Shown here one piece after another: positions 1,624-55,448 of a DNA stretch of 64,000 nt (position 1 is the stretch's first letter; each line of letters starts with the position of its first letter). This DNA is from Prosopocoilus inquinatus. Its lineage: Eukaryota > Arthropoda > Insecta > Coleoptera > Lucanidae. The notes beneath the pieces are model-generated. The model did no database searches. It saw only the letters and a list, made by a program, of their open reading frames with translations, and was not told the origin of the DNA. Position numbers and translations under genes: made by a program. The stretch spans positions 10,124,001-10,188,000 of the forward strand of contig CM069875.1 of assembly GCA_036172665.1 (NCBI GenBank), in the 5' to 3' direction.

Positions 1624-1636
1624 CGTTAATAATATA
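1624..1636 (+). repeat. Left flanking direct repeat (candidate TSD) of the HHR array
   Basis: The 13-mer cgttaataatata recurs at 2813-2825. One to three bases at the inner edges also match the monomer, so the true target duplication is 10-13 bp. Confidence 0.65.
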
Positions 1637-1677
1637 GAAAAATTTTGTGCAAATCGTTTTTGATTGCAGTGAGAACC

Positions 1678-1742
1678 TCGAGCAGCCTCTGGACAGCTGT
1701 TTCAGCCCTGCTTGGGGCTTCTTCAGCAGAAACGTAGCTCGA
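1678..1742 (-). ncRNA. Type I hammerhead ribozyme, minus copy 1
   Basis: Reverse complement of the motif described at 2253-2317, with the same stems and core. Predicted self-cleavage on the minus strand lies between 1692 and 1691. It is exactly 312 bp from the next minus copy, so a minus transcript through both sites would release a 312-nt unit. Confidence 0.8.
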
Positions 1743-1989
1743 CATTCCCACTGCAGACCAAAAACGACTTGCCCAATTTATTCGCAATTGCGATGTAAGA
1801 GTGATGAACATATAAAATAGCGACATCTTACTATCGCTTTTTGACCTAACATTGCAGTAGGATAGACAAACTGAAGCGGGATTTGCTCCTAATGAGTCCC
1901 CCATGCAAGGCGGCCATGCTTGCTGTCAAAGCATAATGAAAGATTTTAGAAAAATTTTGTGCAAATCGTTTTTGATTGCAGTGAGAACC

Positions 1990-2054
1990 TCGAGCAGCCT
2001 CTGGACAGCTGTTTCAGCCCTGCTTGGGGCTTCTTCAGCAGAAACGTAGCTCGA
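1990..2054 (-). ncRNA. Type I hammerhead ribozyme, minus copy 2
   Basis: Same motif as 1678-1742 in the partial minus unit next to the head-to-head junction at about 2070. Predicted cleavage lies between 2004 and 2003 on the minus strand. Confidence 0.8.
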
Positions 2055-2252
2055 CATTCCCACTGCAGACAGCAAGCATGGCCGCCTTGCATGGGGGACT
2101 CATTAGGAGCAAATCCCGCTTCAGTTTGTCTATCCTACTGCAATGTTAGGTCAAAAAGCGATAGTAAGATGTCGCTATTTTATATGTTCATCACTCTTAC
2201 ATCGCAATTGCGAATAAATTGGGCAAGTCGTTTTTGGTCTGCAGTGGGAATG

Positions 2253-2317
2253 TCGAGCTACGTTTCTGCTGAAGAAGCCCCAAGCAGGGCTGAAACAGCT
2301 GTCCAGAGGCTGCTCGA
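2253..2317 (+). ncRNA. Type I hammerhead ribozyme, plus copy 1
   Basis: Core box 1 CUGAAGA lies at 2269-2275 and box 2 GAAA at 2292-2295. Stem II pairs AGCCC (2276-2280) with GGGCU (2287-2291) around a 6-nt loop. Stem III is CAG/CUG (2296-2301) closed by the A2295-U2302 pair, with C2303 as the cleavage-site nucleotide. Inner stem I pairs UUCUG (2264-2268) with CAGAG (2304-2308). Outer stem I pairs UCGAGC (2253-2258) with GCUCGA (2312-2317) across an asymmetric internal loop, of the type that supplies tertiary contacts in natural type I hammerheads. Every conserved core position matches the family consensus. Stem III is short and lacks a proper loop, as in other satellite hammerheads that may cleave best as dimers. 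Confidence 0.85.
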
Positions 2318-2564
2318 GGTTCTCACTGCAATCAAAAACGATTTGCACAAAATTTTTCTAAAATCTTTCATTATGCTTTGACAGCAAGCATGGCCGCCTT
2401 GCATGGGGGACTCATTAGGAGCAAATCCCGCTTCAGTTTGTCTATCCTACTGCAATGTTAGGTCAAAAAGCGATAGTAAGATGTCGCTATTTTATATGTT
2501 CATCACTCTTACATCGCAATTGCGAATAAATTGGGCAAGTCGTTTTTGGTCTGCAGTGGGAATG

Positions 2565-2629
2565 TCGAGCTACGTTTCTGCTGAAGAAGCCCCAAGCAGG
2601 GCTGAAACAGCTGTCCAGAGGCTGCTCGA
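2565..2629 (+). ncRNA. Type I hammerhead ribozyme, plus copy 2
   Basis: Identical to 2253-2317, shifted by 312 bp, with predicted cleavage between 2615 and 2616. Together with plus copy 1 it would release nucleotides 2304-2615, exactly one monomer, with 5'-hydroxyl and 2',3'-cyclic phosphate ends as for any hammerhead. Confidence 0.85.
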
Positions 2630-2812
2630 GGTTCTCACTGCAATCAAAAACGATTTGCACAAAATTTTTCTAAAATCTTTCATTATGCTTTGACAGCAAG
2701 CATGGCCGCCTTGCATGGGGGACTCATTAGGAGCAAATCCCGCTTCAGTTTGTCTATCCTACTGCAATGTTAGGTCAAAAAGCGATAGTAAGATGTCGCT
2801 ATTTTATATGTT

Positions 2813-2825
2813 CGTTAATAATATA
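2813..2825 (+). repeat. Right flanking direct repeat (candidate TSD) of the HHR array
   Basis: Exact partner of 1624-1636. It follows directly where the third plus-oriented monomer breaks off, after ...tatatgttc. Confidence 0.65.
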
Positions 2826-8439: not shown

Positions 8440-8585
8440 GATTTCATGATAACTTGGTCAGCTTGACTACAGTTTAGTTCTCGAGCTACCTCCTTGCTGA
8501 GGAGACCTTAAATAGGGCTGGAAAAGGTGTCTAAGAGATGCTTAGGAAAACTACTGCAATCGAAACTGACTTGCAACTTATTTAT
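8440..8585 (+). mobile_element. Diverged relative of the 312-bp HHR unit
   Basis: The order ctcgagctac, CUGAGGA (8497-8503), stem II gacc/gggct, GAAA (8521-8524), tgcaatcgaaactgacttgc mirrors the monomer around its ribozyme. An extra G before GAAA and mismatches in stems I and III suggest an inactive, old copy. Confidence 0.5.
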
Positions 8586-10618
8586 TTCAGTTCTGAGCGT
8601 TATTGTAATAAAATATGATGTTTACTAATAAAGAGAAATTTTCTTTTAAGTGGTCGAAATATTTTCTAAGAAAATCCTTATTAGTAAACGTAAATTTTAT
8701 TCAAGAGATTTTAATAAATGAAATCAGGGACAAAGTTATAAGTTTCTCATAAGTTTGATATTTATTTTTTAATGCATAATAATGACTTAAAACGCAAATC
8801 GAATATCAAGTTATTGCTTACTAAGGATAAACAAAGACATTGGCTTAATATTTATTTTTTGGAGTAATTTTTTGAAAATGTTTACTCCAGCTGAGCTCTA
8901 GCTGTTACATTCCTCCAGATATGTAATGCTTCCGAAAGGGTGGAAAACAATCACCAACTACAATGTTTAGAGAAACATATTTTTTATCTGAAGTGTTTGC
9001 CTTGAAGCCTTTTTGTCACTTGTGGGAACGAAATAGTAATTTGTACAGCAAGTGCATGAAGATGTACTTTTTTGTATAAGTGTGGAGTTTGTGACATGGG
9101 CCGTAGGCGAGCGTCGCAATACCACGAGTGCAAAAAAGGTTTCGCGCAAGTGTTGCAAACTATGATTTAACCCTTGCAGGGCAAATTATTATATTTTTTT
9201 TTCTAATTTTCAGATTTTTTTATACATGGTCAGATAGCTTAAATAAACAAATCATTATAAGGCGTCTTGTATTCTTTTTTAGTATTTGGGTGTCACTTGT
9301 TTGTGCCACCAATTGTCCCGACTAACTTGTTTCAGAAGTAGTTTGAATAGCTAGCGTTAACAACTAAATCCAAAAATTCTTCAGGGGCAAGTATTTCAAT
9401 ATCTTTCAATTTTTATTTTGGAAAATTCCCCGATATAATCTGTTAATAATTTAAAAGTACAATATTTTCCAATTTGTACAATGAAAATGGTATTAATGCA
9501 AAATTACAATAAGAACACTTTCTTTTCGTTTGAAACTGCAGAAAATTTCACCGCTCTCTCTCAAATATCGTTCTATCTTACACAAAATATTTTGATGTTT
9601 TCTGTTTTCCATTTTGATTCATCTCCCACCAAATTTCTAACGGAAACTAGTTCTTTTGGTCTTCTGTCACAGTGTTTCCGGATGGATTATTTTGAATTCA
9701 CTCACTGCAAAAAGCATTCGAAAAGGAAATCAATCAGGATATTGTAAAATATTCAAATGTCAAAGACGCTAGTTCATAACAAACGGTGTTTCGTCCTGTT
9801 TCATTTAAGAATCCTATTTTCAAAATAACTGTTCCAACTTAATGAGTATCTTTTCGCAGATTTTTGAAACTCACCTTAATGCAAAGCAAACCTTGTGAAA
9901 GGTCTGCACGGTTGAATGAACGTCTTTGTCAAATATAAGAGATGAGATTAAGCGCAAATATTTTTCATGTTTTGTTTCGAATGAGTATATCTGTGACTAA
10001 TTCATTTACTCATCAGTTTTCCAGTAAAAATATTTATGTTGTAATGCGGAACTAACTGCTCATGTCAATTCCGCCATATTCTGAGTGAGTAACAGCGATA
10101 CACTCTGCATTTACATTTTCTAATGCCTTGTCTGCACTCGATGATTATTATTGTCATCACATATTATAATAACAAATTGAAAATAAATGTTAAGTATGCG
10201 AATGTAATGTTCTTGTTCGCAACTTATTTGCATCGGCACTTTCATATGTCAAAGTGCTCCAATCTGTGCACGACTTCGCGCTCCCCATAAATAAACGTGG
10301 ACAAGAGTTGCATAACTGCGTTACAACAAATGAATCGATTATTGTCGTATTAAATCATTTCCTTTGATTATTCAATGCAGGGACAATTTAATCCAGGCAG
10401 GGCGTTTAACGTACGAAATGAGCTGTTTTTTTCTAGAAAGTCGTGCTTATCATTTGGAAGACTTTTTCGCACATATTGATATCGATAGATAAAGGCGTAA
10501 AGTCCCAGATTGTATAGGCATGACGATAATTTATAATAATCGCTTCTAGGTATGTTAACAGTAAAAATTCTACACTCTAGAATATTTCAGGAATATGTTA
10601 TTTCAACTCTTAAAATTC
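8586..10618. other. Intergenic DNA without supported features
   Basis: Open frames such as 9128-9325 and 9481-9747 have low-complexity, random-looking translations. No splice-site-supported coding region was seen. Confidence 0.4.
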
Positions 10619-16436: not shown

Positions 16437-16708
16437 CATTCCTGAAACCTACTGGGTGCGTTTTCCCCCAGTAGACTGTGAGGAGGGAACCTCGTGCGTT
16501 TTCCCTTGGTTCCATTGCACTACCTACAGCAGGCTATGGTTATCCTAGCCGGGGAATGCTAGTCTGTTTTACAAGTTTATGATTAGATTCCTGAAACCTA
16601 CTGGGTGCGTTTTCCCCCAGTAGACTGTGAGGAGGGAACCTCGTGCGTTTTCCCTTGGTTCCATTGCACTACCTACAGCGGGCTATGGTTATCCTAGCCG
16701 GGGAATGC
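16437..16708. repeat. GC-rich structured direct duplication, 149-bp period
   Basis: About 122 bp (16437-16559) recurs at 16586-16708 with one visible difference (cagcaggc against cagcgggc), separated by about 26 bp. Each copy can fold into consecutive hairpins: ctactggg/cccagtag (16449-16474), ggaacc/ggttcc (16486-16513) and ggcta/tagcc (16532-16550). The first two carry the same gtgcgttttcc motif in their loops. It is far more GC-rich than the surroundings. It was not recognised; a structured RNA, a UTR-like relic of a mobile element or a viral insertion are possibilities. Confidence 0.6.
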
Positions 16709-18040
16709 TAATGATAGTTATTTTCTAAGTTGACCCTGCAGAACGTGGAGGTTTGTGCGTTTCTGAACGTAAACTAGTTGATTCACGGTTACCACCATGG
16801 AAGCCTGACTTTAGTTACTGCTGAAAGTTGATTGACTTACATTGATTACCGAAACGGCGTTTCCTGTGTAAAGCGAAGGTTAGCCTAGAGGAGCACATTT
16901 ATACAAAGAACAGTGTTCATTAGCGATATTAGAAGCAGGTGAAGTTGTTGTATAATGGTTGAACCGGCCAGTACATTACATAATGATTAAAGTAATCGGT
17001 CTATGAAATTCTGATTTCGGAAAAATACTTCAGTGGTTCATTTACATAATCCAGCTAGTTAGTCATATAATATTGCTATTCTGTGACAAATAAACAAAAG
17101 AAATAAATATTGATTCAATTTCGCATTTGATTTGAACCGTAGTCTTACATTTGTTAGGTTGGCTATTATAATAAAATTAGATAAAATAATTTCGTGTCAT
17201 TGTAACATATGCCAAAATGTGACACTACAAATCAGATAGATCAACCAGTGTTGTCAACTCTCAATTTTAAGAAATATCCGTCAGAAGGTTACTTCTACAA
17301 GTCAATTTGTTATGTAAATAATTAATTATTTTATGTCAAAATGCGAAATGAAAATTGCTGTGCAAAAAGCATTTATAAGGTACCAAACGGACAGGCCAGA
17401 TTTGGGGAAAATGGAAAATATTGAAAGATTAGAGGAAATGTTTGCAGTGAATACAATATTTCAAATTTGCAAGCGTACTTTTCATTTAGAAATATTTATT
17501 GTAGGTGTCAGAAAATGTATAAGTTATATATTGACCAAAAAACGAGACGATTTGAAAAGTTGTTCTTCTGGAAACGTACTGCCATGGACAAATTTTTAAA
17601 TTACATGATTAGAAAATTTGGAACGACTAATTTAGCAGTATAATTTGAAAAATGAATATTTCACTTTGAACAAATTACTTGCAGACGCACGAGAGACATT
17701 CGAATGTAATGGGAGCAGATCAACTTAATTTAAAATTATTAAAACTAGGAGTTATAAGCACAAAAAGGTTAATGGACTTGGAATTACATTTTTGAGCAAA
17801 TTCTTACAGTTTCAAACATTGCAACATTGCTTCATTCGCAGTAACCTTAAACTCAAAATCAAAATGACTTTCTTTGTCAAAGTTTAGTACCACTTTTCTC
17901 CTAAACTTTCAGGGCATACTTCGATGGTAAATAAATTTTAAAAAAACAGATATTAGTTTACTTGATTTTCTTGCGATATAAAATGTTATATAAATATTTT
18001 GGCGACTATTTATACTTTATTTGTGCCTATTCTGTACATA
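16709..18040. other. Intergenic DNA, one weak coding-like stretch
   Basis: An 88-codon frame at 17333-17599 on the plus strand contains a charged segment (DRPDLGKMENIERLEEM) that looks protein-like, then becomes random. It could be a decayed transposon gene; no family was recognised. Nothing else was seen. Confidence 0.3.
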
Positions 18041-46954: not shown

Positions 46955-46990
46955 GTTGACGTTTCGCTGTATTTGACAGCTTCTTCAGGA
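46955..46990 (-). ncRNA. Degenerate hammerhead motif with GUC site
   Basis: Minus strand: CUGAAGA (46988-46982), stem II GCUGU/ACAGC (5 perfect pairs), GAAA (46965-46962), CGUC. The core and cleavage triplet are consensus, but the flanks (aatttt against aacatgaa) do not form a convincing stem I. Family affiliation lies between the two HHR families. Confidence 0.45.
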
Positions 46991-47079
46991 AAATTATTAG
47001 CTTAGAATAATATTTTATATTTTTTTTTTCGGACAAGATAGTGCTTATATTTATTTTTGTTGGAAATCGTTTTCCTTTT

Positions 47080-47230
47080 CGATTTGCCACAAAATTTTTT
47101 AAAACTATTATTATGCTTTGACAGCGCACATGGTCGCCTTGTATGGGATGACTTATTATGTAGCGACCTGGCTTCAATTTGTGAATCCTAATGCAATGTC
47201 AGGTTAAACAGCGATGGCAGGAAGTTGCTA
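47080..47230 (+). mobile_element. Diverged fragment of the 312-bp HHR unit
   Basis: Matches the monomer from tcgatttgc-acaaaattttt through attatgctttgacagc, catgg-cgccttg, gacttatta and ctaatgcaatgtcaggt to agcgatgg. The ribozyme section itself is not included; a hammerhead-like motif lies about 100 bp upstream on the other strand. Confidence 0.7.
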
Positions 47231-49680
47231 CTTAAATTTGAACAGGTTACAGAGTACAAACCTGTCCAAAATGGAAGCGCCTGTTACGTTCGCTAACGTT
47301 TTGCACAACACAGCCCGGATCGGCGCGCTTGATCTGTACCCGCCTTCAAATAAATATTTCTTTTATTTTTTCAATTTGTTTTCTATAGTAGAATGCCACG
47401 GCTTACAAGAAGAAGAGGTTTTAAAATTGAAAGTCTGTTTTAAAACGATTTATAACTGGCGAACATTTTAAAATCGATTCGTTAATAAATATAAAACAAA
47501 ATAAAAGGATGTGCAGTAAAGAATTAATAATTACAATGTATGGCTATGTTTTAAAATTATTTTAAATAAATGTAAAAAAATACAGACTGATCAAGATTAG
47601 TCCGCATAAATGACCCGGCCTCTGTTCCAAGGTAACAACAACATATAAAAATGGAACATGAAATTTAACAAAGCGTAAACCTTTATTTATATAACAAAAA
47701 ACTCAGAAAATATAACAGAATAATTGTCTGCAAGAACTCCAGTTATTCAAAATTCTTTTATAACAGCAACATAAAATTCAACTTTGTGCGTGGGATACCG
47801 AGGCAATCAAAATATATTCAATCGAATACCTCGAAAACATAATTTACCTTTTTATAAAAACGAGTGAACCTTTGAGAGCTACTACTTTTCTTCACAATGT
47901 CGTCGAGTTTCTGCCTCATTTAATGACTGCAAACGACATACATACCTATAGAACTCCATAAATCTGAATAAACTGGACACGTACCTTTCAAGTGAGTCAC
48001 AAACTCGGGGACTGGTTCTTGCAATTAAGAAAAAAAAACGTACAGAAGAACACGATATAAAAATAGATGTGATTTTACAAACGGCAGCATTCTCGCCATG
48101 CCCAATAATTACAAGCAATTAATTACGATCTAATGTCATAAAGCGGTGGGACTGTCAGCTTAAAAGCACATAAATAAATATGAGCACTTGTTTTGCTACC
48201 TCAATGAGGTGGGAAGAACAAAAGAAAATTTTGGAAATTAATACTTTTCTGAAATGAAAATTCAGCTTATATTTCATTCTTCGGAATTTTCCAAATATGC
48301 TACAGAAGCCCTTTGTTTTAACATTCTCTTCAAATAGTTTGTTCACATGTTAATGACGCATAAATTGTAAATGAATCCTTATTCGTCAGCGTTATTTATT
48401 TACGAATTACGTCAATGTTTATTTAATTACTTTCTACCAAATCGAGAATAAAATATTCAAAACAATTAAGGTGTTGGATTATTATTTCGTTTCTAAATAG
48501 TGGCAGAAATTTTTATGATAGAATAAGAATGGCCGAAGTTTAAAATTGATGTACAAGGTGTGCAAATATAAAGTTCTACTTTCCTTTCGAATATTATCAT
48601 ATCATAAAGCAGCGTTACTCAAAGCGTATCGGAAAGTGTTATCCCCATTCTCGAATGTTTCAGGGAATTAAGATTTCATTCATAGAGAAGTGCCCGTTAA
48701 ATAAATACTTAATAAATACATCCGTCGCAGGTGCAACGTTTAACATGTTGCGGATACATTTCCCCGTTAATTAACATCGCTGTTATAAAGCGTAAAATTG
48801 TACGATAGCTTTTTATTATTCGTTATCTAAGAATACATTTCAAACTCATGGACTTTCAAAATATCTTGAAAAGTTAAATACGCAATATTTTTAAAACATA
48901 CCAGTTTTAATCAAGCACACAGACTTCTTACTCGACAAGAGCTTTATCGATTTTATAGATCTTATAATGAAAAAATAAACATAATTATATTGAGAAATAC
49001 TTACATTATGTAACATTATTTTACTATTCTTCCTATTAATTTGTTCAAACCGTGACAAGAGCCGCTTTCAAATTATGAACTTCAAACACTTGAAATTTTT
49101 TTGCGTCAAAGTAGGTGGAGTTAGGGTGACATTTTTGTTGGTAAGTATAAGTATCTTATTTATGCCAGAGTCGGTCGCAGATGGGTTCTTCTTCGTATTT
49201 GGCAGTATAGTCAGATTACCAGTGTGAAATTGTCACAATATTTTTCCTGTCAGATTTTGGCATCTATCAAAATTCATTTAAGCAGCCCAAGGTAACTAGA
49301 ATACGACCTGCTCTGACGAGAAAAAAGAGTGAATGCTTATAAAGTCATAGGTGTAATGTATGTGTAGTCGTAGGTACTGGTGCGTGAGGGGTCAGAGGAA
49401 AATAAAAAAAAGTTCAATTCAAGTGCGTTTCGCACCCTGTAATTGAAAGGCAACAAGCAATGTTGGAAGTATGTATGAGTGCAATCAATGTAAACATCAG
49501 TAGAGAGAATGTTCACAAAACATATGGCTAAATTTCAACAGCATACAGTATGGCCACTGCAAGTAAAATTGTCCGCGAAGCAGTTTCATCGCTAACAGAG
49601 TAGCAGCAAAGGTTGCCGATGTCTATAACTATTTTCTGTTGGTCAGATATTGTAACTAAATTCTAAATTATATTTCCAAT
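47231..49680. other. Intergenic DNA without supported features
   Basis: Open frames at 47214-47471 and on the minus strand near 47882-48346 look random. No gene was seen. Confidence 0.4.
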
Positions 49681-49683
49681 ATA

Positions 49684-49745
49684 CACGGTGGCCAGAAAAA
49701 TGCGGACAAACGCCAGGTAGAACGATTCTTTGTTCAATTCTGAGG
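49684..49745 (+). repeat. Left TIR of the transposon
   Basis: Starts cacggtggccagaaaaatgc; matched by the inverted right end at 51375-51445. Presumed transposase-binding site. Confidence 0.8.
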
Positions 49746-50108
49746 CGATAATCTTAATCCAAAAAAGTTATGCGGTCCTTCCTTAAGGCGCACGAGACCA
49801 TCAAACCTTAAGATGTACGGCTAAAATTTAGCAAAATTCGTCAAATTTATCTATGTAAAATCATTGTGGTGAAATTTAGAAATGGAATTATCTCAAATGC
49901 ATTGATGTAACTAATCGATTAATACCAATGGTTTACATTTTTAACATTTCTTCATTGGCTTTTTTGAAATTAAAGTACATATGGCAACGTGGTACTGTAA
50001 GGCTGCTTGTTTAAAAGTAGTAAGTAGTTGTCAATTTTTGACGTTTCTCATGTGACATTTGGCTCTTGAAATAAGATAAACATTTTGTGCTGTTCTTAGT
50101 ACCGAACA

Positions 50109-51164
50109 ATGTTTACCTTTGGAGAATACGCCGACATGTATATGGTATTCGGATTTTGCAATGGAAATGCAAACTTGGCAAAAGAAGAATATCAAATACG
50201 GTATCCTCAACGGCGACATCCATCCACCAACACGTTCCGTAGAATGGATCAGCGACTTAGAGAAACTGGCTCCTTTATACCGAATTATCGTAACAGCGGT
50301 AGACCTAGAGGGCGTCGAACAGTTCAATTAGAAGAGCAAATATTGGATGCTGTTTACGAAGATCCGACGTCCAGCACAAGACAAATAGCTCGGGAACTAA
50401 ATATTCCTAGCAAAACAACAGTGCACTCAGTACTATCTCAAAATTTGTTGCATCCGTTTCATGCAAGGAAAGTGCAGCCTTTGTATGTGAACGATAATGT
50501 GCACAGAAGAATGTTTTGTAACAATATTTTACAAAGGATTCAAGAAGAGCCGAACTTTTTATTGCATATTCTCTGGAGCGACGAATGCTTGTTTACGAGA
50601 GATGGCGTCTTTAATAGCCATAATTTTCATTTTTGGGCGGACGAAAATCCCAAGGCAGTAAGGGAAATTGGACATCAGAGAAGATTTTCGGTAAATGTTT
50701 GGCTGGGGATTTTAAATCTCCGAGTTGTTGGACCAATATTTCTTCCAAATCGTCTAAATGGAATTGAGTACGTTAACGTTTTAGAAGAAGTACTGGATAA
50801 TATTCCACTGAATTTGAGACCCAACATGTTGTACATGCATGACGGAGCCCCTGCTCACAATGCCAGAATTTCTAGGGATTGGTTAAACGAACACTTTCCG
50901 AATCGGTGGATAGGGCGTAACGGTCCAATAGCATGGCCGGCAAGATCTCCCGATATTAATCCTCTGGAATTTTTCGTTTGGGGGTTTTTAAAGGAAAAGG
51001 TCTATGCAACGCCTCCAGTGAACGAAGAGGATGTAATTAATAAAATTACGGCGGCAGTTCGATTAATCACCCCGGATATGTTGGAGCGCGTTTTGAATTC
51101 GCTTCCTCGAAGATTGGAATTATGTCTGGAAACTGATGGCTACCAATTTGAACAGTTCTTATAA
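50109..51164 (+). CDS. Tc1/mariner-type DDE transposase, 351 aa
   Basis: Cut-and-paste transposase acting in the nucleus on its own terminal repeats. Residues 1-56 (MFTFGEYADM... RRMDQRLRETGS) match the helix-turn-helix DUF4817-like N-terminus. A second HTH-like part follows at about 70-115 (TSSTRQIARELNIPS). The catalytic domain has D158 (ILWSDECLFTRDG), D245 (YMHDGAPAH) and E287 (WPARSPDINPLEFFVWG). There are 41 residues between D245 and E287, where many relatives have PLD instead of PLE. The GRPRGRR stretch (64-70) is probably an AT-hook-like linker or nuclear signal. The frame is complete, with no stop or frameshift, and the length is normal for the family. The start is chosen because MFTxxEYADM is the usual family beginning. 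Confidence 0.93.
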   Translation: MFTFGEYADMYMVFGFCNGNANLAKEEYQIRYPQRRHPSTNTFRRMDQRLRETGSFIPNYRNSGRPRGRRTVQLEEQILDAVYEDPTSSTRQIARELNIPSKTTVHSVLSQNLLHPFHARKVQPLYVNDNVHRRMFCNNILQRIQEEPNFLLHILWSDECLFTRDGVFNSHNFHFWADENPKAVREIGHQRRFSVNVWLGILNLRVVGPIFLPNRLNGIEYVNVLEEVLDNIPLNLRPNMLYMHDGAPAHNARISRDWLNEHFPNRWIGRNGPIAWPARSPDINPLEFFVWGFLKEKVYATPPVNEEDVINKITAAVRLITPDMLERVLNSLPRRLELCLETDGYQFEQFL

Positions 51165-51374
51165 TTTTTTCATATTATCTTTAAATTTGAATACAATTGG
51201 TATCCATGTTAACATAAAATTCTTGCTAATTTGCGTATTTACCTGATTTATAGTAAATAATAAAATGATTACTACCACAGTACTTGTCTGATTAGGTGTT
51301 GCCAAATTTACAATTCTTTTAAGCTGCTCGTGTGACTTAAGAAAGCACTGTACTACTTTTTTCAATTAAGATTG

Positions 51375-51445
51375 TCAACTCAGAATTAAACAAAGATTTG
51401 GCCTGCGTGGCGTTTGTCCGCATTCGCATTTTTCTGGCCACCGTG
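51375..51445 (-). repeat. Right TIR of the transposon
   Basis: Inverted copy of the left end. It has an extra gaatgc between aaaaatgc and ggacaaacgcca, so the two ends are slightly unequal. Confidence 0.8.
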
Positions 51446-53164
51446 TATATAGGGAGATTCAGGCAACCCTTTCATTAAAAGTTTACGGACTTCTCCTTTG
51501 AATTTCTGCTTCATATTTTGCAGTTATAAGTTAACGATATGGATCTATCAAAATATAATATTTTCAAATTTCGGACACTTCCGCTTATATCGAAAGTTGC
51601 TGTCAACTTTCTTATTTTAAATGGAATACCCCAATTTTTCCGAGATATTTTCGTTTTTTAAAAATAACTCAGACTTGCAGAACCTTGGTTATGGTACTGC
51701 CATCTTTGTGCAACAAAAACCATGATGTCCATTTTTGGCCTGTAGTGGGCTAAAGAAACATTCTTTCAGATCATGTCCAGTTTTGCACTTAATTGCTTAT
51801 AGGCTGGTTGAAAAGTAACTTCTATTCGAACTAATTTCAACTATCGAAAAGTAATGTTTTTTAAATGGAATGCCTAGTATATTTTTATACCACGTGACTC
51901 AGGATTAAATGTGCTTTCGTCCTGTATTAGCATTCCCTGTACGTATCTCTTATAGTTCACCCGTTATCGATAATTTCTTTTTAATACCTAACTTTTTCCA
52001 TTTTTCGGTATTATTTTTAAATAGTGGGCTATGAAAACTAGAGAAATTATAATTTTTGAAATCATGCGTCTAGTAGGAATTAAAGAAAAACAATCTAATC
52101 GCTACGAAGAACCAAAAAATGAATAATCAAACACAGACATATTAAATGTATTTGATGATAAAAAAATCGACAATTCAAAAAGTTAATAAAAAAAGTTGTT
52201 ATACCGAGGAAAATGCGTTATTACTTAGATATAGTAGAAAGTTATTACTTATAAATAATAGCCGAGGACAACTTAGAGCCAATATTATAACAAACAATTT
52301 GTGTATTATTTTTAATATTTCTGATTTATTTATTAGTTTTCATAAAATTTGGTATTGTTAAGTGTAAATTTCTCCTTGTAAATGTATATATAGTTATACC
52401 AAGAATTCTAATACATGCTGCATATGTAAACAAAAAGTTCAGATGATAGATATGTATTTAAATATTATTTGTCGGTTTTTAAAATGAAATTGAAATTACA
52501 GTCAGAAATTAATTTAAAAACCCTTAGTTTGTTAAATTTTCATAGCACACTATTCAGGAATAATAGTGATAAGTGAAAAAATTGATGTGTCAAAGAGAAA
52601 ATCATGAATAGAAAGAGAAAGGTAACAGATGGGTGTAGGGAATGCTAATACAGTTCGAAAGAACATTTAATTCTGATTCTTATGGTATAAAAAAGTACTG
52701 GGTATTCTATTTAAAAAACATAACTTATCGACAGTTGAAATCAGTTCGAACAGAAGTTACTTTTCAACCAGCTTATGAGTATAGCCTACTACAGGCCAAA
52801 AATTGAAATTATGGCTTTTGTTACACAAAGATGGCAGCATCATAAATAAGGTACTACAACTTTGAACTTTTTTTTTTAAAATGGAGATATCTCTAAAACG
52901 GCTAATTTTTCTTGTATCACATGTTACACAAAATATTTTTAGAATTTCATGAATATTTCAGAAATGCAATAAAAAATTGGGTATTCCATTTAAAATAAGA
53001 AAGTTGACAGCAACTTCCGGTACAAGCGGGACTGCCCGATAGTTGCAAATATTATATTTTAATGGATCATTATCGCTAACTTATAACCGCAAAATATGAA
53101 ATAGAAATTCAAAGAGGAAGTCCGTAAAGTTTTAATGAAAGGGTTGCCTGAATCTCCTTGTATA
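51446..53164. mobile_element. 1.7-kb foldback element
   Basis: The left end reads tatatagggagattcaggca and the right end complement tatacaaggagattcaggca. Arms continue inward with small gaps: ttgcagttataagttaacga (51520) against its complement near 53080, ctttgtgcaacaaaaaccat near 51703 against its complement near 52825, and tagcattccctgtacg near 51928 against its complement near 52640. Only about 600-700 bp in the centre is unpaired. No transposase was recognised. The element includes the ttattttaaatggaatacc motif shared with other MITEs here. Confidence 0.75.
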
Positions 53165-54471
53165 GGCACACCCGAGTGCTCACGAAATCTCATTTCTTTG
53201 TAATCTGATAAGTAATTAGTTTGCTTATAAACATATTAAATAATTGTTTACAAGTAATAATTCAGGATATTGATACAAAATGTTTCAATCTGCTATTCGA
53301 TAATTGAAAATAAGAATAATAACAAATTTGTTCTTGCAAAAGTAAAAAAAGTATGAATGAAATAAAAAGAATGCTCAAAACGATAACAATCTTATGATGA
53401 CAAAATATATGGAAATAAAAGACAAACTACCCTAATGAGTACAAGAACAATAACAATATTGCAATAGGATCGCAGCGCATGTAACATCCCACACGTTAGC
53501 ATACAAGTAACTGGCACATATCCACCGCATAACATTGACCGCCCAACTTGACAAGGTTTGCCGATGTGTGCCGATTTAAATTTAATGGTGTTTGTTAACA
53601 CAATAATTGACTTTATACCTACAAATTGTGCTCGAAATGAAGACAGTAATAATAAATTATTATTATATATTTATAGTAAATCGTTACACTTTATTGAGAA
53701 AATCGTTGAACATATACATATTTAAGAATATAGTCCTTAAGTATGTAAATTAAATTTATAAATAAAATGTAAATGCATTGCTGACTTAAATTTTATTTTA
53801 TCTCGTAAAAGTCTGTTCTTTCATTTGGTAACAAAATTAAAAAAATTATAGTAATTATTAATAAGGTGTTTGAAAAATAGGAGTATGTATTATTTTTGTA
53901 GTATCTTCTCATTTACCGTATATAAAACTTAAATATCACATGTTGATTTAACAATGGCTTAAGTTTTGTTACCTGTTGTACGCATTGCATAAACATTTTA
54001 CACCTAATGGTATAATTCTGTACATGTTAGTAAGAATCATACGATTTGTTGTTAATGATCGTTTGTTAAATGATTGATTTTAAGGACTTATAGTTCAATT
54101 CATGAAAGAGTACATGCACGTCATATACAATAATCGTCTGTACCAAATCACTGAACTAGTTAATCAACACTACTCGAATTTTTATATACCGGAAAAACGT
54201 CATTCAATTAAATTCAAATATTAAGTGTTGATCAACGAAGAGCAGGCATTTGATACAGACGAGTATTGTATATGACGCTGATGTATTCTCTCATGAATTG
54301 AACTGTACATATCGTATGATTTTTACGGAAATCCAAAAAACTTGGAGATTCATGTCGACACTTGATCGACAATCTTCTGCAAGGACCTTGTACACGTTAA
54401 GAAAGTAAATAAAAAAGAATGCCTGTATTTAACTGAAATATGTATTTACGAACAGTTTAAACTGTTCATTA
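53165..54471. other. AT-rich intergenic DNA with an inverted segment
   Basis: gtacatgcacgtcatataca...cgtctgtacc (54111-54146) and its near complement (54255-54290) form a weak inverted repeat, followed by gattcatgtcgacacttgat. No gene was seen. Confidence 0.4.
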
Positions 54472-54632
54472 CTATTACATCGCATATGCGATTATCTTTA
54501 GTCGAATTGTTTTGGTTTGCAGTAGAACTCCCGAGCTACGCTTCTACTGAAGAAGCCCCAAATAGGGCTGAAACAGCTGTACAGAGGCTGCTCAAGGGCT
54601 TCACTGCAATCAAAAACGATTTGCAACATTGT
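54472..54632 (+). mobile_element. Single diverged copy of the 312-bp HHR unit
   Basis: Matches the monomer from ttacatcgca through ggtttgcagtag, cgagctacg, the ribozyme, and cactgcaatcaaaaacgatt to gcaaca. It is one isolated half-length copy, older than the array at 1637 and separated from it by more than 50 kb. Confidence 0.75.
54532..54594 (+). ncRNA. Hammerhead ribozyme, diverged single copy
   Basis: CUGAAGA (54547-54553), stem II AGCCC/GGGCU around caaata, GAAA (54570-54573), stem III CAG/CUG, then U54580 and A54581 as cleavage-site nucleotide (GUA, allowed). Outer stem I GAGC/GCUC is kept. Inner stem I UUCUA/CAGAG has a mismatch at the pair nearest the core. It is less certain to be active than the array copies. 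Confidence 0.65.
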
Positions 54633-55448
54633 TTTTTTTTTTTAATATTTAGGTAATAATTACACACAATATACTTTACTGTCAAATAACTTCAACTGAA
54701 CAATCGGAGATGGATGTAAACAGACAAGTTGATTCGAATTCGTTCTTGTTTGTGCCGTTACAATAACACATACGCCCGTATTTTTTGATTTCTACGTGAC
54801 TCAAGTCATGAGTGACTGTAAAGCACATTGAGCTTTTGTGTTATAAACACAATTTGCCTAACAGAAAACTACGCAAATAATTTCACTAATTTCATCCTAT
54901 TCAAACTGCTGGAATAAAGTAATCTAAATCGACTAAAAATTTTAAGAGGGTGGTTATACGGCCTGGAACGCCCGGTATAAAACGTACATTTTTTTATATG
55001 TATACCGGCTTTATAATTGCGTTTATATCGGCATAGATTCGAAGTTTCACAAATGTCATATGACAATTGGCCATTTTTTTGAAAACTTCTTTCACCCACA
55101 GCGGTCTTTCAAATGATTTAGGCTGTAAAGCGTAGTGTATGATCCAAAATGATGGAATTTCCAAACACTTGCTCAAATATTCTAAGTAGTAAAAACCACT
55201 CCATTTTAAGTATTTTATCTTTTTCCCCAAAAATAAATTTAATAATTAATTAATGTATTAATTAATAATTAATAGATTTAACTACCTTTACCGTATGTTA
55301 ATTCGCATTTAAACCTTTTCGCATTTTTGCAGTGACACACAATTACTCATTTGATTGGCTAAACTGTGATACCATATTTCAGTAGAGAGACATTCCTTTT
55401 AATATTTGGGAAACTCGCAATTTACGAATTCTACGAAATGAATTTTTT
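54633..55448. other. Intergenic DNA with MITE remnant
   Basis: 54905-54978 (aattttaagagggtg...aacgcccggtata) is a degraded right end of the 33977-34161 MITE type. An AT-only near-palindrome lies at 55238-55272. Nothing else was seen. Confidence 0.4.

Follow-up and report, generated by a model that had tools for sequence, protein, structure and literature searches.

Animal retrozyme repeats hold no conserved motif that would betray the retrotransposon mobilising them, Penelope-like elements being one candidate (PMC7761336, PMC7229834), and Penelope or LINEs have been proposed as their helpers (PMC7229834, PMC7761336, PMC11722881); structural proof of a helper is not found in the available text of these three papers. 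Further work on retrozymes and their ribozymes is given in PMC8490949 and PMC7936874. As for Penelope itself, the protein from Anolis cuts and extends both strands, two internal start sites, alike between strands, define the 'tail', unprocessed RNA is the main substrate and the hammerhead is unneeded (PMC11167929). Penelope copies of rotifers carry an inverted pLTR with an optional tail on one, together with duplications of 8-10 bp, and some families show direct repeats only or no duplication (PMC3846280). In the present study, we analysed a window, i.e., the whole stretch of 64,000 nucleotides from the beetle Prosopocoilus inquinatus, in which a 312-bp hammerhead-bearing repeat had been predicted to be an insect retrozyme. 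Its copies point to a paired-start mode of insertion that is shared with the Penelope elements of the same genome.

Anatomy of the insertion

The insertion consists of the following parts, unit numbers being positions within the 312-nt repeat.

1624..1636, no strand: left target-site duplication CGTTAATAATATA, 13/13 identical to 2813-2825
1637..2070, minus: inverted arm, 434 nt, 1.4 units, 100% to the unit reverse complement; runs from unit 246 at the junction out to site B (unit 55-57)
1686..1732 (by arithmetic), minus: inverted-arm hammerhead, core 1700-1726
1998..2044 (by arithmetic), minus: inverted-arm hammerhead, core 2012-2038
2068..2070, no strand: inversion junction, microhomology GAC, 3 nt
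2068..2813, plus: forward arm, 746 nt, 2.4 units of 312 nt; runs from unit 77 at the junction out to site A (unit 198)
2263..2309 (by arithmetic), plus: second plus-strand hammerhead, one unit upstream of the next, core 2269-2295
2575..2621, plus: type I hammerhead, RF00163, 23.8 bits, E 4e-4; predicted cleavage after C2615
2813..2825, no strand: right target-site duplication, exact copy of CGTTAATAATATA

The exact 312-bp period of the original prediction was borne out by a 100% match over 2.4 copies (2068-2813), the 13-mer on both sides is exact at 1624-1636 and 2813-2825, and the four hammerheads were recovered, two with cores on the plus strand (starting at 2269 and 2581) and two on the minus strand (1726 and 2038). 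The description as a tandem element held for the units but not for the layout: the 434 nt at 1637-2070 match the unit at 100% identity in reverse complement, and this inverted arm and the forward array are joined head-to-head, with an overlap of 3 nt at 2068-2070 and two fixed outer end points. The insertion had also been called young, which agrees with the zero differences of the window copy and with identical copies elsewhere in the genome. About 40 bp to its right, 33 nt (2864-2896) are 79% like the reverse unit, being either a remnant or a chance likeness.

Hammerhead ribozyme and classification of the repeat

The unit contains the parts of a type I hammerhead, namely CUGAAGA, a 5-bp stem II, GAAA, a 2-bp helix III with an AGCU loop, GUC, and a stem I of 7 bp, an internal loop and 6 bp. 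A descriptor of CTGANGA, stem II and GAAA matched five times in the 64-kb window, i.e., the four hammerheads here and the old copy at 54547, with a mean of 0.1 and a largest count of 2 in shuffles (n = 100); a looser hammerhead pattern matched six times versus 0.2 expected from shuffles. The covariance model agreed in part: a scan of 101 nt placed RF00163 at 2575-2621 (23.8 bits, E 0.0004), but this score is lower than the gathering score of 34, and the support falls under the curated cut-off of Rfam. At the gathering score the whole window gave no match, and in a scan of 1.5 kb HH9 was the only hammerhead family to appear (14.5 bits, E 4.2). The minimum free energy is -42.9 kcal/mol versus -36.9 kcal/mol with the hammerhead forced; the free fold thus favours another, simple hairpin by 6 kcal/mol, and the ribozyme activity is therefore a candidate one, drawn from a predicted fold. 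The ribozyme core is intact in 126 of 129 copies identified by an anchored descriptor in 38 sequences, a count that takes in copies with unchanged anchors and leaves out those with changed ones.

The unit has a GC content of 44%, and one of its frames contains a single stop per 312 nt. This frame had no match in Pfam, a search for homologues found none, and the substitutions that separate the unit from the diverged copy at 54456 are distributed 5/5/5 by codon position (dN 0.13, dS 0.19); the lack of a codon-position bias in this comparison with the old copy, along with the two negative searches, led us to reject a coding unit. Searches with a DNA pattern in viral and in prokaryote collections gave 0 matches each. 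The ORF with reverse transcriptase (RT) and GIY-YIG domains that is required of a Penelope-like element is absent from the unit by Pfam, and the repeat is therefore not itself a Penelope element, yet it appears to insert like one. An LTR-like layout was not seen. What the repeat does show are short tandem type I hammerhead units (the range being ~170-400 nt), a GC content below 50%, and dispersal with duplications of more than 4 bp. With its tandem type I hammerheads, low GC, non-coding sequence, dispersed near-identical copies and target duplications (PMC7229834), the identification as a retrozyme stood up, and these sequence characters support the assignment of the 312-bp repeat to a non-LTR retrozyme family of the known metazoan kind.

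Older copies and other repeats in the window

Diverged relatives of the unit occur elsewhere in the window.

8481..8594, plus: older family fragment, 66%, unit 262 to 63
47055..47251, plus: old diverged copy, 79%, plus arm from unit 36 towards site A
47055-47073, minus: piece of the 47055 copy, unit 49 to 32
54456..54646, plus: old diverged copy, 81%, plus arm from unit 188, end near site B

The copy at 54456 retains a hammerhead (RF00163 at 54541-54587, 23.9 bits). The fragments 47080-47233 and 54456-54636 abut in unit coordinates, and a nested insertion joining them is the less likely reading because the 47055 copy has its own short inverted piece; no convincing inverted piece was found for the 54456 copy, for which nesting may still hold.

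Several other structures were observed in the window. At 46962-46988 on the minus strand, 67 bp from an old retrozyme copy, lies a CTGAAGA/stem/GAAACGTC motif that we take to resemble the minimal hammerhead of Penelope; Rfam gave no support for a Penelope-type minimal hammerhead at this place. A Mariner-like element spans 49687-51447, with terminal inverted repeats that match by eye and an open transposase frame at 50109-51161 (351 aa, DDE_3) that is 98% identical to a public protein. Inverted termini (GGAGATTCAGGCAACCCTTTCATTAAAA and its complement) at 51450-53160 suggest, by eye, a DNA transposon or MITE, and 16438-16710 is a 149-bp tandem repeat (1.8 copies, 99%).

Copies across the genome and the rule of their ends

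The genome that contains the window measures 650 Mb, and a search of it with the 312-bp unit, which the original prediction had put forward as a check, returned at least 205 matches, many of them near-identical and dispersed. The sample analysed comprises 40 scored of 1097 first-look candidates and is biased towards the most similar copies; 38 loci including the window were obtained, of which L045 repeats L044 together with its flanks, leaving 37 distinct loci. Target duplications are present at 32 of the 37.

The arrangement seen in the window proved to be general. At 33 of the 37 distinct loci the minus arm stands to the left of the plus arm, with the arms running outward, and the outer ends form a pair, one in site A (unit 194-200) and one in site B (~54-70). 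Target duplications of 10-16 bp accompany 32 of these 33 A/B loci, L036 being the one without. Thirty of the 33 were assigned by script (17 B-A and 13 A-B) and L032, L033 and L036 by eye: the alignment of L033 starts at unit 49 but its arm continues into the B region, and L032 and L036 carry an A-tract at the B end. The only A-A row of the script is L013, which has A at both ends and an inverted repeat as its flanks, and which is a palindromic (inverted) duplication including those flanks. L015 and L031 consist of a single arm and have no duplication, L035 is incomplete within the extracted stretch, and L019 and L023 contain a jump inside one arm.

If the choice between A and B were random at each end, 33 mixed loci of 33 would have a probability of ~1e-10. 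The pairing of A with B speaks for both ends having used a single RNA, or for two enzyme subunits with set tasks. The older, diverged copies in L034 (1823-2128) and L040 (720-870) follow the same A/B rule, and the window copy at 47055-47251 shows it less clearly. Arms reach ~six unit lengths, and their lengths on the two sides are uncorrelated (32 loci, rho 0.18, p 0.32); a correlation of arm lengths as a sign of simultaneous synthesis was rejected on this result. The variant 133G>A is fixed across all covering units in 10 loci and mixed in L013 and L036 and, as single copies, in L019 and L026 (L035 and L045 left out). Such homogeneity within loci would equally fit transcripts of homogeneous arrays.

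Joints, stagger and target preference

An exact stagger of 12 bp fits 30 of the 32 duplications, allowing for bases common to the element. Among the 14 loci with a duplication of exactly 12 bp, the half-sites read, after the cut, G/C (22/28), T (23/28) and T (24/28), and these STT half-sites are alike on both strands (p 1e-9 to 3e-6); taking all 64 half-sites, whose boundaries are ambiguous, the signal is weaker (G/C 36/64, T 42/64, T 37/64). Symmetric half-sites with a 12-bp stagger could reflect a symmetric, two-subunit endonuclease.

Microhomology was found at the ends as well as at the inner joints. Over 30 loci, its mean at the A end is 1.7 versus 0.34 by chance and at the B end 3.2 versus 0.36, with negatives set to 0 and with a duplication finder that maximises length and so inflates the values to some degree. 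Inner joints average 2.4 over 32 loci (excluding L013, L034 and L045, and with negatives again set to 0) versus a one-direction chance of ~0.35, or roughly double for both directions. Taken joint by joint, with L034 and L045 left out, 1-6 nt are common to the two arms in 28 of 33 cases; in two more nothing is shared, and the remaining three contain 1-7 extra nt. L026 and L029 sit at an identical position within two copies of a different element and have different inner joints, and a target preference is therefore indicated; the target gene reads like what we presume to be a Maverick/Polinton DNA polymerase.

Penelope elements of the same genome

A search for the GIY-YIG family yielded 150 scored matches of 2232 candidates, which form 102 clusters (10-kb linking), 55 of them with one scored copy. 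All 47 clusters with at least two scored copies are head-to-head (46 '-+' and one '--+'), and none is tail-to-tail. A 591-aa frame in L053 combines RVT_1 (2.6e-14) with GIY-YIG (2.9e-7), and frames reach 788 aa. A GIY-YIG regular expression gave 0 matches in 46 sequences. Among 120 listed relatives of the Penelope protein, the closest show 60-61% identity and 10 rows carry organism names, i.e., Tribolium, Aromia (twice), Molorchus, Planococcus, Aedes, Malaya, Toxorhynchites, Wyeomyia and the springtail Allacma. The nine insect rows and one springtail lend indirect support to the insect origin that the original prediction had assigned to the retrozyme.

Ten Penelope loci were picked as short head-to-head pairs, so that their orientation was fixed by choice and their ends were not. 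In 10/10 pairs, the stretch beyond the GIY-YIG match is 259-262 nt long in one arm and 293-300 nt in the other, measured on a 300-nt reference that is the tailed arm of L056 itself and makes 300 a ceiling value; one end is tail-less and the other has a tail and is 31-40 nt longer. Duplications of 11-16 bp flank 10/10 pairs, and 9/10 are compatible, by eye, with 12. These ends match the two-site starts described for Anolis and the inverted-pLTR copies of rotifers. In these 10 loci the STT half-site does not stand out clearly (T at +2 in 11/20 and at +3 in 9/20), and a comparison of the Penelope 3' region with the retrozyme unit gave no significant similarity (best E 0.52). In L056-L065, a minimal hammerhead-like motif, CTGAAGATGGTAACTTCGTTACCGAAA, was also observed ~80 nt before the short end.

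Template and predicted RNA circle

The ribozyme cut site is run through by 69 arm pieces, with 149 crossings in 38 rows (duplicate included and some pieces filtered). For those pieces, the template was therefore something other than a cleaved linear monomer. The inner ends scatter over the unit, and none lies at 157-195. In the predicted 312-nt circle, unpaired runs of at least 8 nt occur only at 48-69 and 186-210, and these open loops hold sites B and A, respectively; they persist when the 133A variant is folded and when the hammerhead is forced. Rotating the pair of A/B sites around the circle, 6 of 312 positions fit the loops equally well, all of them shifts of 0-7 nt, and AU-richness contributes to this coincidence of loops and sites.

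Proposed mechanism and alternative explanations

In our judgement, a Penelope-like RT/endonuclease probably writes the retrozyme into the chromosome by priming both cut target strands on the predicted circle. At the beginning of this process, the type I hammerhead would cut the repeat transcript into 312-nt monomers, which may then be closed to circles. A dimeric Penelope GIY-YIG endonuclease would cut the target strands 12 bp apart and leave 3' overhangs; the stagger is read from the duplications, and we infer the cutting enzyme. One target 3' end would prime at site A (~191-200) and the other at site B (~52-62), each in a predicted open loop and assisted by a few bases of microhomology, if the end points of the arms are indeed the priming points. 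Each polymerase may follow its template, presumably the circle, for up to ~six unit lengths; the two cDNA ends would then be joined head-to-head, mostly at 1-6-nt microhomology, and gap filling would leave the target duplications. The Penelope element of the same genome has a like footprint and is therefore the likely copier of the retrozyme RNA, presumably acting in trans.

A rather similar scenario keeps the Penelope priming at both ends but replaces the circles by linear array transcripts that stay multimeric and uncleaved. The unprocessed RNA used by the Anolis protein, for which the hammerhead is dispensable in vitro (PMC11167929), speaks for it, the arm starts of the window copy lie only ~20 nt of unit apart and are obtainable from one linear RNA, and the arrays are homogeneous anyway. 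However, with 126 of 129 descriptor-matched ribozymes intact, long multimers need a blocked ribozyme, and the open loops at A and B appear in the fold of the monomer circle, so that we regard linear templates as unlikely. Mobilisation by a LINE through twin priming, like the 5' inversions of L1, is much harder to uphold. In L1 twin priming both target strands prime, with inversion and microhomology, as seen or proposed here for the retrozyme, and head-to-head arms with microhomology are known for L1; one L1 arm begins at poly(A) and the start of the other varies, and only some insertions are inverted. Duplication lengths offer LINEs some room as well, those of L1 being 15 bp and those of ZfL2-1 being 5 bp in one system (PMC4245944). 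Nevertheless, a poly(A) 3' start and a minority of inversions, as in L1, are not what was found: the ends are internal and fixed, one of each, with inversion at 33/37 loci, the right end of the window copy is without poly(A), the cut half-sites are symmetric with a near-fixed 12-bp stagger, and a like pattern occurs in the Penelope of the same genome, the retrotransposon family to which the comparison was confined.

Less credible again is a single priming event after which the cDNA snapped back on itself, or a later inverted duplication of a tandem array. L013, with its A-A ends and inverted-repeat flanks, is what such events would produce, and self-priming has been proposed for rotifer Penelope (PMC3846280); but snap-back gives A-A or B-B ends, whereas 33/37 loci have two different sites, and it is disfavoured on that account. 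Finally, hammerhead repeats are found in the satellite or repetitive DNA of newts and cave crickets (PMC6155905), and one might think of an ordinary satellite spread by unequal crossing-over, with the flanking 13-mers arising by chance; against the dispersed insertions, the duplications at 32/37 loci and the fixed end points, this idea is hardly tenable.

Returning to Penelope priming on a circle, the genomic copies would, if the scenario is true, be a record of how the Penelope enzyme uses both target strands, with two start points predicted. Going one step further, we lean slightly towards animal retrozymes in general being parasites of Penelope that present its enzyme with a ribozyme-made RNA circle carrying two single-stranded landing loops; each cut DNA strand would prime in its own loop of one shared circle, and two simultaneous polymerases would produce a head-to-head double rolling-circle copy. 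The link between retrozyme and Penelope is checkable, since paired ends, head-to-head arms and near-12-bp duplications are alike in both families. In titles and abstract openings (supplements and most subscription papers lying outside this search) we found no published description of paired start sites in retrozymes, and the one-of-each end rule is not addressed in the main text of PMC11167929 that was available; the paired-start footprint tying a retrozyme to the Penelope machinery, which we did not find in print, would be the new element of the present finding.

Comparison with known systems

The plant LTR retrozymes (PMC4918200, PMC7229834, PMC7761336) are alike in being non-autonomous, in their hammerhead and in their circular RNA, and differ in having a type III hammerhead, LTRs with PBS and PPT, and 4-bp duplications, and in being likely moved by Gypsy elements. 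Much closer are the metazoan non-LTR retrozymes (Cervera and de la Pena 2020, PMC7229834), which share tandem units of a few hundred bp, duplications of more than 4 bp, a type I hammerhead with a 2-bp helix III and tetraloop, a GC content below 50%, and a non-coding, highly self-paired RNA. Head-to-head arms and two fixed starts are not described in the available text of that paper, where the helper is only suggested; circles and cleavage are shown there, whereas here they are predicted from sequence. With Penelope-like elements (PMC3846280, PMC11167929), the repeat has in common the head-to-head inverted arms, the duplications, the AT-rich targets, the two start sites, the one-sided 'tail' and a type I-like hammerhead. 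Penelope encodes RT and GIY-YIG and has its ends 31-40 nt apart, whereas the retrozyme encodes nothing and has its sites ~137 of 312 nt apart; the insertion pattern of Penelope, with one end of each kind, is nonetheless present at 33/37 retrozyme loci as it is at 10/10 Penelope loci.
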